Part shown: piece after piece, positions 4,577 through 54,909 of the stretch
Layout of the letters: each line of letters opens with the position of its first letter
Position numbering within the stretch: the first letter of the stretch is position 1
From: Paracandidimonas soli
Lineage (GTDB): Bacteria; Pseudomonadota; Gammaproteobacteria; Burkholderiales; Burkholderiaceae_B
NCBI RefSeq assembly: GCF_004342005.1
Contig: NZ_SMBX01000010.1
Coordinates: forward strand, 41,913-105,912
Direction of reading: 5' to 3'
DNA length: 64,000 nucleotides
Made by a program: the position numbers and the translations under genes
The notes under the pieces: generated by a model
Database searches by the model: none
What the model was told of the DNA's origin: nothing
Seen by the model: only the letters and a program-made list of their open reading frames with translations

Positions 4577-5359
4577 TTAATCCTCATGGCCGCAATACGG
4601 CCGTTCCCTGTGATACTGCAGCGCCATATCCAACATGCTTTGCGCCACTTCGCGTTGCCGCTGGGGCTGCATACGCGATTCGATGCTGGCAATGCTCAGT
4701 CCGGCGATGATGCGTTCGTTGGCATCGCGCAATACGATGCCGATGCCGATGACGCCGGGTACGGCATAGTTGCCGATGACGGCGTAACCGCGCTCCCGGC
4801 TTTCCGCGACTAATTCCATCAATGCAGTATCCGACAGACCGCCGTAATGGTGCAGCCGCCAGGCGTTGGCCTGTACCAGTTGCCGCGCCTGGGGCTCGGG
4901 CATTTGCGCGAGCATAGCCAAGCCGCCCGAGCCGACGCCGATAGGCTGGCGATTGCCGATGTCGATGGCCAGTGCCTGGATGGGGTAGGTTCCTATGGCG
5001 CGGGTCACGCATAGCGTGTCGAAGCCGCTGGGTACCACAAGGAATGTGGCATCGCCCAACTGCAGGGAAATCTTCAATAGCAGTGGGCGGAACCAGTCTT
5101 TGATGTCAGCGGGCGCCGCCAGGTGCTGCGCTAATTGCGCGCAGTAGCTTCCCAGGATGTAGCGGCGGTCTGATTCCCGCTGCTGAACCAGTCCCTCATC
5201 GATCAGGCTGGCCAGCAGGCGGTGCGTCGTCGGGCGTTCAATGCCGCTGACGTTCGCCAGGTCCAGCAGCCGCATGCCGCCTGGGTGGTGTGCGGCGATC
5301 AGCTTGAGCAGGGTGATGGCGCGCTGCACGCTTTGGGTGCGTGGGGTCGGTCTATCCAT
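4577..5359 (-). CDS. IclR family transcriptional regulator
   Basis: A 260-residue protein of normal family length. Residues ~10-70 form the winged helix-turn-helix (SVQRAITLLKLIAAHH..., LANVSGIERPTTHRLLASLIDEGLV). Residues ~80-250 are the GAF-like effector domain with the usual SGFDTLCVTR and GYAVIGNYAVPGVIGIGI segments. It is transcribed away from the thiolase/CoA ligase/Bug operon, and two near-identical palindromes lie in the shared intergenic region. It is therefore very likely the local regulator of that operon and of itself, responding to an acyl or aromatic acid ligand that cannot be read from the sequence. Its last residues resemble the relic at 3192-3254. Confidence 0.92.
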   Translation of the reverse strand: MDRPTPRTQSVQRAITLLKLIAAHHPGGMRLLDLANVSGIERPTTHRLLASLIDEGLVQQRESDRRYILGSYCAQLAQHLAAPADIKDWFRPLLLKISLQLGDATFLVVPSGFDTLCVTRAIGTYPIQALAIDIGNRQPIGVGSGGLAMLAQMPEPQARQLVQANAWRLHHYGGLSDTALMELVAESRERGYAVIGNYAVPGVIGIGIVLRDANERIIAGLSIASIESRMQPQRQREVAQSMLDMALQYHRERPYCGHED

Positions 5360-5383
5360 GGGTTTTTCCTCTATCGGTTCTTT

Positions 5384-5400
5384 AGTCCGTATATCGGACT
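5384..5400. promoter_or_regulatory. Palindromic operator, copy 1 (IclR side)
   Basis: AGTCCGTATATCGGACT has perfect 6-bp arms around TATAT, starts 25 bp upstream of the iclR start codon and shares its core with the copy at 5478-5496. It is inferred to be the binding site of the adjacent IclR regulator. Confidence 0.75.
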
Positions 5401-5477
5401 TTTATCTGATGTGTTGGGATTGACCCCTGTTTAGTCTATAAACATAATTGAAGTCAAGAATAATCGCCATGGATATA

Positions 5478-5496
5478 AAGTCCGTTATACGGACTT
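5478..5496. promoter_or_regulatory. Palindromic operator, copy 2 (thiolase side)
   Basis: AAGTCCGTTATACGGACTT has perfect 8-bp arms around TAT and ends 10 nt before the thiolase start codon. Bound protein here would block the promoter or the ribosome-loading region of the operon. The pair with 5384-5400 (centres about 95 bp apart) suits repression by a dimer or tetramer. Confidence 0.78.
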
Positions 5497-5506
5497 ATGG
5501 ATACAT

Positions 5507-6745
5507 ATGGATATTTTCATCACCGGGATCGCACAGACGGCCCTGGGCAAGCATCCCCAGTTGTCCGTCAAGGAATTGACGCGCATGGCGGTGGATTCCG
5601 CGCTGCAGGATGCCGGGTGCGCCGCGGACGATATCGAGGCGGCGTGGTATTCCAGCGTGCGGCAGGGCCAGATGGAAGGACAGAACTCCATCCGTGGGCA
5701 ATGCGCACTGGTGGATTACGGGTTCAGCGGCCTGCCCATCTTCAATGTCGAAAACGCCTGCGCCAGCAGCAGTTCAGGGCTGTTCCAGGCGTATTGCGCC
5801 ATACGCTCGGGAATGTTCCGCCAGGTGCTGGTGGTAGGCACGGAAAAAATGTTCTACCCCGACCGCAAGGAAGACATGATGCGCGCGTTTTTCGGGGGAA
5901 CGGACATCCATGAGCTGCAGTCCACCTGGGAGCGCCTGAAAGGGCTGGGGCAAGGAATCGGACCTCAGGCCAATGCGCCCGGAAAGTGGGATCAGCAGAG
6001 CTTCTTCATGGATGTGTATGCGGCCCTGGCCAGGGATCATATGCAGCGCTATGGCACGACGCAGCGCCAGATCGCGTTTGCGGCGGCGAAGAACCATGTG
6101 CATTCGACCATGAATCCTCTGGCGCAATACCGAACGCCGATGACGGTGGACGAAGTCATGGACAGCCCCCTTATCGCCTGGCCGCTGACACGCGCCATGT
6201 GCGCACCCATTTCCGATGGCGCCGCCGCTGCCGTGCTGACGGCGGGCAGCGCCATGACGCCGTCGCAGCGTGCGCGTGCCGTGCGTGTGCGCGGCATGGG
6301 CGTTTCCAGCACGGTGCATCGTGAGCCGCAGGATCTGGATCGCCACTGTGTGCTGCTGGCGGCGCAGCGGGCTTACGACATGGCGGGCATCCGCCCTGCG
6401 GATATCGATGTGGTGGAGGTACATGATGCGTCCAGCTTTGCGGAGATATTGCAGATAGAGAATCTCGGTCTTTGCGGCAGGGGCGAGGGCGGAGTCTATA
6501 CGGAGTCGGGCGCGACCAGCCTGGGAGGCGAGTGTCCGGTCAATGTGTCCGGCGGCCTGGTGTCCAAGGGGCACCCGATCGCGGCCACGGGGCTGATTCA
6601 ATGGCACGAGCTTTGCACGCAATTGCGCGGCGAGGCCGGGGAAAGGCAGGTTGGGGATTGCCGTGTCGCCGTCGCCGAGAATGGCGGCGGCTTCCTGCGG
6701 CATGAGGATGCCGCCGCTGTCGTGACCGTGCTGGACAGGGAGTGA
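5507..6745 (+). CDS. Thiolase family protein (SCP-x/acetyl-CoA acetyltransferase-like)
   Basis: 412 residues with a thiolase fold. The nucleophile region NACASSSSG (Cys85) and the C-terminal SKGHPIAATG (His356) are present. The usual final CxG motif is replaced by NGGGF, as in SCP2-type thiolases whose acyl-transfer chemistry is often unproven. It probably cleaves or condenses an acyl-CoA intermediate in the cytoplasm. It is the first gene of an operon with a CoA ligase (10 nt downstream) and a Bug solute receptor, pointing to uptake, CoA activation and thiolysis of an organic acid. The start at 5507 has no strong Shine-Dalgarno sequence; the operator at 5478-5496 occupies that place. Confidence 0.88.
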   Translation: MDIFITGIAQTALGKHPQLSVKELTRMAVDSALQDAGCAADDIEAAWYSSVRQGQMEGQNSIRGQCALVDYGFSGLPIFNVENACASSSSGLFQAYCAIRSGMFRQVLVVGTEKMFYPDRKEDMMRAFFGGTDIHELQSTWERLKGLGQGIGPQANAPGKWDQQSFFMDVYAALARDHMQRYGTTQRQIAFAAAKNHVHSTMNPLAQYRTPMTVDEVMDSPLIAWPLTRAMCAPISDGAAAAVLTAGSAMTPSQRARAVRVRGMGVSSTVHREPQDLDRHCVLLAAQRAYDMAGIRPADIDVVEVHDASSFAEILQIENLGLCGRGEGGVYTESGATSLGGECPVNVSGGLVSKGHPIAATGLIQWHELCTQLRGEAGERQVGDCRVAVAENGGGFLRHEDAAAVVTVLDRE

Positions 6746-6754
6746 GGCAAGATC

Positions 6755-8299
6755 ATGCGTCCGATTGATCTGTTTTATCGTGCGGCGCGGATGGCGCCCC
6801 AGGCCCTGGCGGTTGCTGGCTCAGTCAGCAAGCTCGCGCCGGACGGGAAGCTGAGCTATGCGGAACTGGAGCATCATGCGCAGGCGCTGGCGGCTGCACT
6901 GCAGAAGCTCGGCGGCAAGCCGCGCCCCGTCGTGGCGCTGCTGACGGAGAACAGCCCGGAGATGCTGGTCGCCATCCTGGCTATCTATGCCTGCCAGGGC
7001 GTGCTGGTGCCTTTGACGAGCAAGTATCCAGCGGCGGAGATCCACAAGCAGATTGCCACGGCGCAGCCCGATGTCATTGTCGCCAGTCCGAAGCTTGCCG
7101 GTGTCGTGCGGGATCTCTCCACGCGGGTGGTATGGACGGCCATGTCCGAGGATGCGCGCGAGGGCGATGCCTGCCTTGGAGATTTGCTGCGGGAATGGGA
7201 TGGCCGTGTTCCTGCCGAGACGGCCTACGATGCCGCCGATGTGGCTGCCATCAAGTTCACTGGGGGTTCGTCCGGCCAGCCCAAGGCCGTGCTGCAGTCG
7301 GCGCGTTGCCTGGTGACCATGGCGGTCAGCATGCAGCAGGTGTTCGGCCTGTCCGACGACGACCGCTTTTTGCTGGCGCCGCCCATGACGCATGGGGCGG
7401 GGACATTCGTCCTGCCGCTTCTGATGGCGGGTGGCTCGCTCATCATTGCCGATGGGCCGAAAGCGGATGTGCTGCTGGACCTGATGCAGGCGCACGATGC
7501 GACAGGCACGTGGGTGCCGCCTACCTTGCTGTACCGGATGCTGGATGCCCAGGAGGCCGTGCCGCGCTCCTTGCCGCGCCTGCGTCATCTGCTGTACGGC
7601 GGCGCCGGAATCGCGCCGGATCGGTTGGCGCAGGCGCAGTCCCTGTTTGGCCCCGTGGTGGGGGTCTGCTATGGCCAGACGGAAGCGCCGGTCATCATCA
7701 GCGGCATGGCGGGAGCGGAGGCTGCGCAGGACCATGCCAGGGGAAGCGTGGGCCGCGCCGCGCCGCTGACCCGGCTCGCCATCATGGCGGCGGACGGTGC
7801 GCTGCTGCCGCCGGGAGAAGAGGGTGAAGTAGTGGCTCGTGGCGATCTTCTGATGTCTGGCTACCTGAGCATGCCGGATGCCACCAGGGAAACGCTGAAG
7901 GACGGGTGGCTGCATACCGGCGACCTGGGCTATCTCAGTCCTCAGGGCTATCTGTTTCTCAAGGGCAGGCTCAAGGAAGTCATCATCAGCGGCGGCTTCA
8001 ATGTCTACCCGTCGGATGTGGAAGCGGCATTGTCCGAGCACGCCGCTGTGGCGGAAAGCTGCGTCTTCGGCTTGCCGGACCCTTTGTGGGGCGAGCGTGT
8101 GGAAGCGGCGGTCGAGCTGAAGCAGGAAGCGTGCGCCACCGAAGAGGAGCTGATCGGGTTCCTGAAAGAAAGAATCGGCGCGGTACGCACGCCGAAACGC
8201 ATCCATTTGTTTGAAAGCCTGCCACGCAGCGCGCTTGGAAAGATCCAGAAGCGCGAGCTGCGCGAAGGCTTGATGTCCGCGGCCAAGAGGGCCGGTTAG
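6755..8299 (+). CDS. AMP-dependent acyl-CoA synthetase/ligase
   Basis: 514 residues of the ANL superfamily. The P-loop TGGSSGQPK (~residue 169), the YGQTE adenylate motif (~304), DGWLHTGDLGY (~382) and the C-terminal catalytic lysine in LPRSALGKIQKRE (~495) are all visible. It adenylates a carboxylic acid and forms its CoA thioester. The substrate is not readable; the neighbouring thiolase and Bug receptor suggest an imported fatty or aromatic acid. It lies 9 nt after the thiolase stop, so it is probably co-transcribed under IclR control. Confidence 0.92.
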   Translation: MRPIDLFYRAARMAPQALAVAGSVSKLAPDGKLSYAELEHHAQALAAALQKLGGKPRPVVALLTENSPEMLVAILAIYACQGVLVPLTSKYPAAEIHKQIATAQPDVIVASPKLAGVVRDLSTRVVWTAMSEDAREGDACLGDLLREWDGRVPAETAYDAADVAAIKFTGGSSGQPKAVLQSARCLVTMAVSMQQVFGLSDDDRFLLAPPMTHGAGTFVLPLLMAGGSLIIADGPKADVLLDLMQAHDATGTWVPPTLLYRMLDAQEAVPRSLPRLRHLLYGGAGIAPDRLAQAQSLFGPVVGVCYGQTEAPVIISGMAGAEAAQDHARGSVGRAAPLTRLAIMAADGALLPPGEEGEVVARGDLLMSGYLSMPDATRETLKDGWLHTGDLGYLSPQGYLFLKGRLKEVIISGGFNVYPSDVEAALSEHAAVAESCVFGLPDPLWGERVEAAVELKQEACATEEELIGFLKERIGAVRTPKRIHLFESLPRSALGKIQKRELREGLMSAAKRAG

Positions 8300-53554: not shown

Positions 53555-54043
53555 ATGAACGCGCGGCCACTATTTGCGGATGCCGGCACTGGCTCGCCTG
53601 ATGCGCGTGAGCTGGTGGGTAAGTGCATCCCTACATTCGATGAGTTTTGGTCGGCCTGGCCCAAAAGGGAGGCTAAGAAAGACGCCCGGCGAGCCTGGGA
53701 CAAGCTGCGACCGCAGGACAGGATCGCTGCACTGGCGGCAGTGCCGGCGCACATTGCGCGTTGGAAGCGTGAGGGGCGAGCTCGAAACCATATTCCCCAT
53801 CCTGCGACCTGGCTGAATGGTGAGCGCTGGGAGGACGAGTTGGGCGAGATCTTTGCGCCAACGCAGCCGCAGCGCCCTGCACAATCGGGGCCGGCTTGGT
53901 GGACGTCTCACACGCTGATGGAACGCAAGGGCAGAGAGGTGGGCATAGGCCCGGCTCGGCCCGGCGAGTCATCCGACCAATACCGGGCGCGTATCCAGGC
54001 AGCGATCGAGGACCAGCAGCGCTACGCAGCAGCGAGCGGCTGA
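53555..54043 (+). CDS. Replication-associated phage protein
   Basis: 162 residues from ATG 53555 (AAGGAG 5 nt upstream). FDEFWSAWPKREAKKDARRAWDKLRPQDR...HIPHPATWLNGERWEDEL is the conserved C-terminal module of phage O/DnaT-like replication proteins, here without the usual N-terminal winged helix, which may be supplied by the gene at 53173. It probably recruits host helicase. Confidence 0.7.
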   Translation: MNARPLFADAGTGSPDARELVGKCIPTFDEFWSAWPKREAKKDARRAWDKLRPQDRIAALAAVPAHIARWKREGRARNHIPHPATWLNGERWEDELGEIFAPTQPQRPAQSGPAWWTSHTLMERKGREVGIGPARPGESSDQYRARIQAAIEDQQRYAAASG

Positions 54044-54107
54044 CAGCGGGACGAGGGCTCCCGCGCACGTAACAGGGCCTGAATGGGCTGGCAGGAGCGA
54101 ATACACA

Positions 54108-54270
54108 GGGTCGACCGTGTGACCCGATCACAACCACGGTACCGGTAAGCGCGTGAGCGCTAGGGGTGCAATTCCCCGAATAGTCCGGCGAGCTGGCCGT
54201 ATCCACAGGCTCGGGGGCAGGCGGTATGCCTGAAGTGTGGATCCCGCGTAAGCGGGGCGGAAGGCCGGTC
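54108..54270 (+). ncRNA. Candidate structured RNA between replication gene and late regulator
   Basis: This stretch has no plausible gene but many consistent helices: GGGTC/GACCC (54108-54112 with 54121-54125); AGCGC-GTGA-GCGCT (54148-54161) and CCCGC-GTAA-GCGGG (54243-54256), both with GNRA tetraloops; GGGG/CCCC (54163-54177); a long-range ATCCACA/TGTGGAT pair (54201-54207 with 54236-54242) enclosing CAGGC-GGTAT-GCCTG (54218-54232); and ACCGG/CCGGT (54141-54145 with 54265-54269) closing the whole. The nested helix abuts the second GNRA hairpin, allowing coaxial stacking. The 313-nt gap holds nothing else. Class unknown; no intron core or retron features recognised. Confidence 0.55.
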
Positions 54271-54356
54271 CTCCCTGCCTCCTGGCGCGTCATGGCGCTG
54301 GGGGGTAGGGGGGGCCTTTGGCGGAAGTAATCAACTGCTTTAAGAGGAGTAAATCA

Positions 54357-54794
54357 ATGTCTCAACCCATTTTCGGCCAAAAACCGGCGAGACCGGCTGT
54401 GCAAAACTTTCGGCGGATCCCTGAAATCCAGCGTCGGCTCGACCTGTGGGCAGAGTGGCGGTTAAACCAGGGCGGCGGTGGAGGTGGCGGCGGCTCGGTC
54501 CTTGGCTATCTGGTGGATGTGGCTGCGGGGCGTCGGGTTGATGGTGACGCGGATAGCCCAAGGTCAATTGTCCCTGTCGATAGTATCGAGTGCTCGATCA
54601 CTGATGATGCTGTGATGGCGCTGCCCGATGAACTACGCAAGGCGGTGAAGGCGTGGCATTGTGCATCGAGCGGGACGCTTGATGAGATTGCTCGGGAGCT
54701 GGGGGTGGTGCGCGGCACTCTGCATCGACGGTTGTGCCATGCGGATATTCGTATTCGGGAGTGGTTGCGGGCAAGGCGTAAGGCAGTTTCGTAA
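54357..54794 (+). CDS. Possible late-gene regulator (antiterminator Q-like)
   Basis: 145 residues from ATG 54357 (AAGAGGAG upstream). RRIPEIQRRLDLWAEWRLNQ, a Gly8 run, then DDAVMALPDELRKAVKAWHCASSGTLDEIARELGVVRGTLHRRLCHADIRIREWLRARRKA, a sigma-region-4-like HTH as in phage Q/RinA-type late activators. It lies just before the packaging and structural genes, the usual place for that role. Confidence 0.68.
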   Translation: MSQPIFGQKPARPAVQNFRRIPEIQRRLDLWAEWRLNQGGGGGGGGSVLGYLVDVAAGRRVDGDADSPRSIVPVDSIECSITDDAVMALPDELRKAVKAWHCASSGTLDEIARELGVVRGTLHRRLCHADIRIREWLRARRKAVS

Positions 54795-54878
54795 CATTTA
54801 GAATTATGCGACATATACTGGATTGGCTAATATCTGGCATATTCCGGAGGTAGTCGCGTCAGGGGACGCGGCGACAAG

Positions 54879-54909
54879 GCCCGACAGCTCGCGTTGTTGG
54901 GCTTTTTTT
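54879..54909 (+). terminator. Terminator after the late regulator
   Basis: GCCCGACA, 8-nt loop, TGTTGGGC, then TTTTTTT. If the upstream protein is an antiterminator, this is a candidate site of action. Confidence 0.88.

Follow-up and report, generated by a model that had tools for sequence, protein, structure and literature searches.

A structured phage RNA family with two short segments repeated in its own 3′ flank

What is encoded in an intergenic gap of a prophage in which many helices can be drawn? This question is raised by a 64,000-nucleotide (nt) stretch of Paracandidimonas soli DNA (contig NZ_SMBX01000010.1; the whole stretch is referred to here as the window), in which a first-pass annotation, made from the letters alone, marked positions 54108–54270 as a multi-helix RNA candidate, be it a regulatory element, another phage-encoded non-coding RNA or a replication origin. 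The window contains a prophage that is also represented by contig IMGVR_UViG_2802428855_000005, identical across the RNA. The gap is found to carry a structured phage RNA that is almost certainly real, widespread and previously uncatalogued. This RNA is intergenic and longer than was marked, spanning approximately 54057–54327 on the plus strand; its homologs covary, and no coding gene runs across the stretch.

The first-pass annotation held that the density of helices exceeds what isolated repeats would give. An excess over chance could not be derived from the window alone, because the folding energy of the single sequence is ordinary (z = −0.98, with 36 of 200 shuffles folding as well; z = −2.0 for the minus strand), and it is the comparison with homologs, through an independent model match and compensatory changes, that bears it out. 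A DNA search of 267 other genomes of the family gave two relatives, and the blastn matches in relatives, L002 (76%) and L003 (71%), span the marked stretch and more. Distant phages were gathered by pattern searches for the 5′ motif and for the G-run (Table 1), and then by patterns in which T-loop and G-run are combined. At least 258 loci bore a pattern in all; 12 at contig edges and two without the G-run were dropped and four were added, so that the RNA is present in at least 248 regions, most of them taken from contigs of environmental phages. From 248 regions, 122 non-redundant loci were kept (less than 80% mutual identity). A covariance model, here model R1 (distinct from segment R1 below), was built from 31 environmental phage sequences with the window left out, and it gives a single match in the 64-kb window, at 54139–54326 (81 bits, E = 8.6e-24). 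After 11 divergent loci had been set aside, the first 100 of the remaining 111 were given to model R1, and all of them matched; most of the 11 divergent loci were matched with E values from 2e-13 to 1, and two (L089 and L082) were not. Because the T-loop and the G-run both stood in the search patterns, their conservation is partly selected; among 25 loci collected without using the G-run, 24 retain it, in the form G3+ T1-3 A G3+. The 5′ motif pattern alone retrieved nine viral contigs.

Searches elsewhere were largely negative. Among GenBank phages, blastn with five RNA queries yielded no RNA match, one query giving only a short match to a Gordonia lysin, and model R1 matched nothing in the stretches taken from relatives of the neighbouring primase (Acidovorax AP1, Paracoccus Shpa, Xanthomonas FoX1, Escherichia coli ep3 and two spring metagenome phages). 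In 397 genomes sampled by phylum, weak model R1 matches were found in five beyond the window genome (21–24 bits), approximately the chance expectation, and one weak host match (L291) looks by eye like coding sequence. Of 16 pattern loci on genome contigs, one (L035) is a homolog by eye. In Acidovorax phage AP1, the primase is followed by a non-coding gap (OM049504.1, 11815–12115; L292) that opens with GGGGCCTGCACGGGCC, which resembles the 5′ motif. The gap contains neither a G-run nor a model match and is possibly a diverged relative. A very diverged member (L103) lies at 7294–7459 (11.6 bits, E = 0.14) beside a 792-amino-acid protein (4776–7151) without a PHROG match.

In the alignment of 100 homologs, 87.9% of cells are paired and 737 cells are changed on both sides, as compared to 216 ± 12 after shuffling and at most 133 when partners are slid by 1–3 columns; the covariation score is 0.479 versus 0.179 in the control. 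Since this alignment was fitted to model R1, nested helices are favoured in these statistics. A model-free MAFFT alignment of 31 sequences gave a similar outcome (168 both-side cells versus 58 ± 6 shuffled), and P6, which lies outside the model, nevertheless shows both-side changes in three of its five pairs, with 90–94% of cells paired. P6 and P7 constitute a pseudoknot (PK2) because the 5′ strand of P7 sits within the P6 loop. P1, P2 and a further pseudoknot, PK1, were identified by eye, the last lying outside both the model and the statistics. The partners of P1 change in step (CTCCC/GGGAG in L003, GTCC/GGAC in L006 and GTCCC/GGGAC in L005), and PK1 recurs as ACCGCG/CGCGGT in L013, CTGGGT/ACCCGG in L006 and GTCGT/ACGAC in L009, again by eye. 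In P10, pairing is kept mostly via G–U changes on the pyrimidine strand.

Table 1. Elements of the window RNA and its adjoining genes; pair statistics refer to the 100 homologs.
Feature	Position	Strand	Remarks
Replication-initiator-like gene	53555–54043		upstream neighbour; phrog_270
P1	54057–54061 GCTCC / 54094–54098 GGAGC	+	encloses P2
Conserved 5′ motif GGGCCTGAATGGGCTGGCAGG	54075–54095	+	
P2	54076–54079 / 54086–54089	+	by eye
Hairpin with PK1	stem 54108–54112 / 54121–54125; loop ACCGTG 54114–54119	+	loop pairs with CACGGT 54135–54140
P3	54142–54145 / 54185–54188	+	encloses P4 and P5; 5/5 model pairs changed on both sides; 89.5% of cells paired
P4, GTGA loop	54148–54161	+	3/3 pairs changed on both sides
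P5, T-loop-like loop TGCAATT	54163–54177	+	2/3 pairs invariant
P6	54189–54193 / 54209–54213	+	5′ strand of P7 in its loop: PK2
Segment R1, GGCC	54195–54198; copy R1′ 54313–54316	+	between P6 and P7
P7	54201–54207 / 54236–54242	+	7/7 pairs changed on both sides
P8	54218–54222 / 54228–54232	+	nested in P7; 5/5 pairs changed on both sides
P9, GTAA-capped	54243–54256	+	immediately 3′ of P7; 5/5 pairs changed on both sides; 76% of cells paired
Segment R2, GGCGGAAG	54256–54263; copy R2′ 54320–54327	+	after P9
P10	pyrimidine strand 54270–54282 / G-run GGGGGTAGGGGGG 54301–54313	+	85.5% of cells paired
3′ flank (tail)	54313–54327	+	R1′ GGCC, TTT, R2′ GGCGGAAG
Unnamed 145-amino-acid gene	starts 54357		downstream neighbour; no PHROG or Pfam match

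Most of what had been drawn within 54108–54270 is present, both in the sequence and in the minimum-free-energy fold: the two hairpins with GNRA loops, the 7-bp stem with its nested hairpin, and the hairpins at 54108–54125 and 54163–54177. The outer closing helix, for which the minimum-free-energy fold pairs GGTC near 54109 and GGCC near 54264, is unsupported, as GGGTC pairs locally with GACCC, in a hairpin whose loop pairs with 54135–54140. The central proposal, a folded RNA encoded by the phage, is upheld by the covariation across the 100 homologs. As a separate observation, 12 of the 248 regions (L170, L175, L180, L211, L214, L228, L241, L244, L247, L254, L265 and L267) apparently have P4 lengthened, ahead of the T-loop, into a long stem (GTGATTGATGATG/CATCATCAATCAC), and several of these inserts are tRNA-like, for instance in L180 and L214, seemingly grafted onto the RNA.

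An Rfam search, which had been suggested together with the covariation analysis that proved positive, matched no family of Rfam 15 at the gathering score in the window or in 20 whole loci, except for tRNAs. The best sub-threshold match on the window RNA is a tymovirus tRNA-like element (15.6 bits, gathering score 40), and L188 and L099 gave nothing plausible. The literature on structured phage RNAs, motif strings, R-loop primers and phage non-coding RNA families, covered with the exception of most subscription journals, yielded no description.

An unexpected feature of this RNA is its tail. In each homolog, the tail after the P10 G-run consists of GGNN, approximately three T-rich bases and a word of 6–11 nt, the first and last of which repeat segments R1 and R2 of the same RNA. 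In 97 of the 100 homologs, the dinucleotide that follows GG in segment R1 is the same as in its copy in the flank (23.4 ± 3.9 when permuted; the misses are L123, L163 and L133). For segment R2, the mean shared length is 7.18 nt versus 5.08 ± 0.09 when tails are swapped among homologs (n = 122), with a shared word of at least 7 nt in 94 of the 122, as compared to 2.5% with shuffled tails, and of at least 6 nt in 112. There are 63 distinct words among the homologs, and the identity stops sharply at both word borders. From these sequence comparisons, the match of the split segments to their own DNA flank is very probably selected. That the repeats vary together yet stay equal is to be expected where a single partner strand has to be matched by both. 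Across the six regions compared between −700 and +600, complements of the tail did not exceed swapped controls, nor was a direct copy found in other regions of that range, and a search for a second tail-like target site in the 122 loci gave 7 matches versus 7 for a reversed-word control. As no complement lies nearby and only the tail's own template strand is available in every case, this strand is the natural partner, and it may be inferred that R1 and R2 pair with the template strand of their own flank.

What purpose might such pairing serve? The best of several readings, with a probability of roughly one in three, is that of an R-loop primer or origin RNA acting like ColE1 RNA II. A stand-alone phage RNA would be transcribed through P1–P10 into the tail, and its folded core, with the P6/P7 pseudoknot and P9 directly after P7, would hold R1 and R2 side by side. 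The two segments would then pair with the template DNA strand at R1′-TTT-R2′, and this pairing, together with the conserved G-run on its C-rich template, may produce a stable RNA–DNA hybrid, or R-loop, that could open the phage DNA and supply a primer, such that the locus would act as, or help, the phage replication origin. This reading builds on the established fold, family, two repeats, replication-gene neighbourhood and, in part of the family, promoter. It is favoured by the covariation and pseudoknot, the independent model match, the ordered direct repeats R1 and R2, a tail with no complement or second target site, the family's own promoter on the RNA strand, the replication-gene neighbours, and convergent terminase and PAPS reductase genes that leave no downstream message in those phages. 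The broader notion of an undescribed, widespread class of phage RNA, whose split, pseudoknot-held guide recognises its own 3′ flank and primes replication without a protein initiator, is more tentative still.

Promoters resembling those of sigma-70 peak 200–250 nt ahead of the T-loop, and only on the strand of the RNA: 9/12 matches occur in 18% of loci at −250 to −200, as compared to a background of approximately 2%, and a strong score is found in 38% of 117 loci versus 7% when shuffled. In environmental phages such as L181, L188 and L199, the promoter-proximal leader, approximately 100–200 nt upstream of the core, folds as a long, almost perfect hairpin closed off by a T-run, which looks like a terminator or attenuator ahead of the core RNA. 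On the opposite strand, 150–200 nt past the T-loop, promoter-like sites pointing into the tail occur in approximately 7% of the 122 loci versus approximately 2%, a hint of a possible antisense transcript.

Gene calls across the family, made mechanically from the longest open reading frames, place the RNA beside replication genes. Of 76 upstream proteins, up to 19 belong to primase families, 9 to RusA and 3 to initiators, and downstream neighbours belong to initiator families (up to 10 of 88) and to DnaB or primase-helicase families (five each; these counts overlap). Among the 25 families listed for 79 proteins scanned 4–9 kb away, there is no primase, helicase or initiator, and these proteins are mainly terminase, endolysin and HNH. 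The first-pass placement at an early–late junction suits the window, but in other phages the constant neighbour is the replication module rather than a late-gene boundary. In the window, HNH and terminase genes lie downstream of the 145-amino-acid gene. The 145-amino-acid protein likely has a helix-turn-helix near its end, on our own reading of the sequence. After its gene, at 54876–54905, a hairpin resembles a strong intrinsic terminator and has a weak likeness to STnc310 (25.1 bits, gathering score 40). GC and AT skew was rejected as an origin test, being confounded by gene orientation.

Several observations weigh against an R-loop primer. For the window copy, no promoter of its own could be detected, and it adjoins a replication-initiator-like gene, so replication of the window phage may begin by another route. 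In many members, a hairpin resembling a terminator, with its T-run, separates promoter from core (T-runs occur in 60 of 117 loci, as compared to 6 in the opposite-strand control), and opposite-strand promoters inside the RNA show no peak, hence no clear signal of an antisense RNA I. R2 alone is short for a stable hybrid, and the skew change at the RNA is accounted for by gene orientation.

The terminator-like leader would instead suit a cis-acting transcription element, in which P10 and the tail pause the polymerase while R1 and R2 compete for the template and terminate or modify transcription. The P10 hairpin is followed by NNTTT, and downstream genes are mostly co-directional, with 75–81% plus-strand coding in the first 2 kb. 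This possibility is made doubtful by the terminase clade, which has nothing co-directional downstream: among 10 proteins scanned, the next large gene, on the opposite strand, encodes the terminase large subunit in L045, L075, L154 and L059, and PAPS reductase in L261. Also questionable is a trans-acting RNA for host takeover or regulation, with tail repeats that serve RNA processing or 3′ end formation. Its own promoter and stand-alone position would agree with such a role, as would the tRNA-like grafts on P4 in several phages, comparable to the tRNAs carried by GOLLD RNAs (PMC12286853), but why the repeats equal each other yet vary among phages is left unexplained. It is unlikely that R1 and R2 direct a protein, or the RNA as a ribozyme, to the strand opposite the tail so as to nick or mark the DNA of the phage itself, with three nucleotides (AAA) left unpaired between two short helices. 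The two-part match with its constant short gap, found in cis only, the proximity of the segments brought about by P7/P9 and the conserved TA motif of the G-run adjoining the site are consistent with a guide of this kind; however, a nuclease or recombinase gene is not a constant neighbour, no second target site was found in the 122 loci, and lengths of 4 and 7 nt are small for guides.

A riboswitch-like leader in the 5′ untranslated region of the next gene is very improbable. A good ribosome site and gene start (54342–54357) do follow the window RNA, but downstream gene families vary among phages, with no constant co-directional gene, and in the terminase clade the RNA is not an mRNA leader because it points into the end of the opposite-strand terminase gene. 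Among the first-pass alternatives, a regulatory mRNA leader thus fails in that clade, and a stand-alone non-coding RNA or an origin remain. A DNA-level signal, either a cruciform or a single-strand origin, would fit the replication-gene neighbourhood and is scarcely credible, given that P10 depends on many G–U pairs, which are mismatches in DNA, and that the promoter is oriented along the RNA. If the RNA does prime replication, it would explain how replication starts in phages with a primase and helicase and no obvious initiator. That a split segment follows the DNA flanking its own RNA points to an RNA–DNA recognition mechanism not catalogued here.

Known systems share parts of this arrangement. 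IS110 bridge RNAs and OMEGA RNAs carry short guides that match DNA next to the RNA gene, and the phage RNA segments likewise match the DNA adjoining theirs; unlike those systems, no recombinase or nuclease partner and no mobile element ends are seen, and both segments have the same sense. Group I introns have a P3/P7/P8 order with a hairpin between the two 3′ strands of a pseudoknot, which the phage RNA recalls, whereas it has no Rfam match to them, no fixed P7 sequence and no P4–P6 domain between the strands, and it interrupts no gene in the window. GOLLD RNAs carry tRNAs, and the phage RNA resembles GOLLD and ROOL (PMC12286853) in being a large phage RNA with pseudoknots and in the tRNA material attached in some members. 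Unlike either, it has no Rfam match to them, is much shorter, has repeats of its own flank and lies beside replication genes rather than in tRNA islands. A G-rich loop is part of ColE1 RNA II, with which the phage RNA has no sequence or Rfam kinship; its host is a phage rather than a plasmid, its match is split between R1 and R2, and no antisense RNA I is seen. ColE1 RNA II opens its origin through a persistent hybrid without an initiator (PMC5043065). Set beside it, the phage RNA is likewise a non-coding RNA, with its own promoter in part of the family though none detected for the window copy, upstream of a would-be template hybrid site, with G-rich RNA opposite a C-rich template and a specific fold that would be needed. 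As in ColE1 RNA II, upstream segments, here R1 and R2, have sequences that would allow pairing with the template close to the 3′ end.
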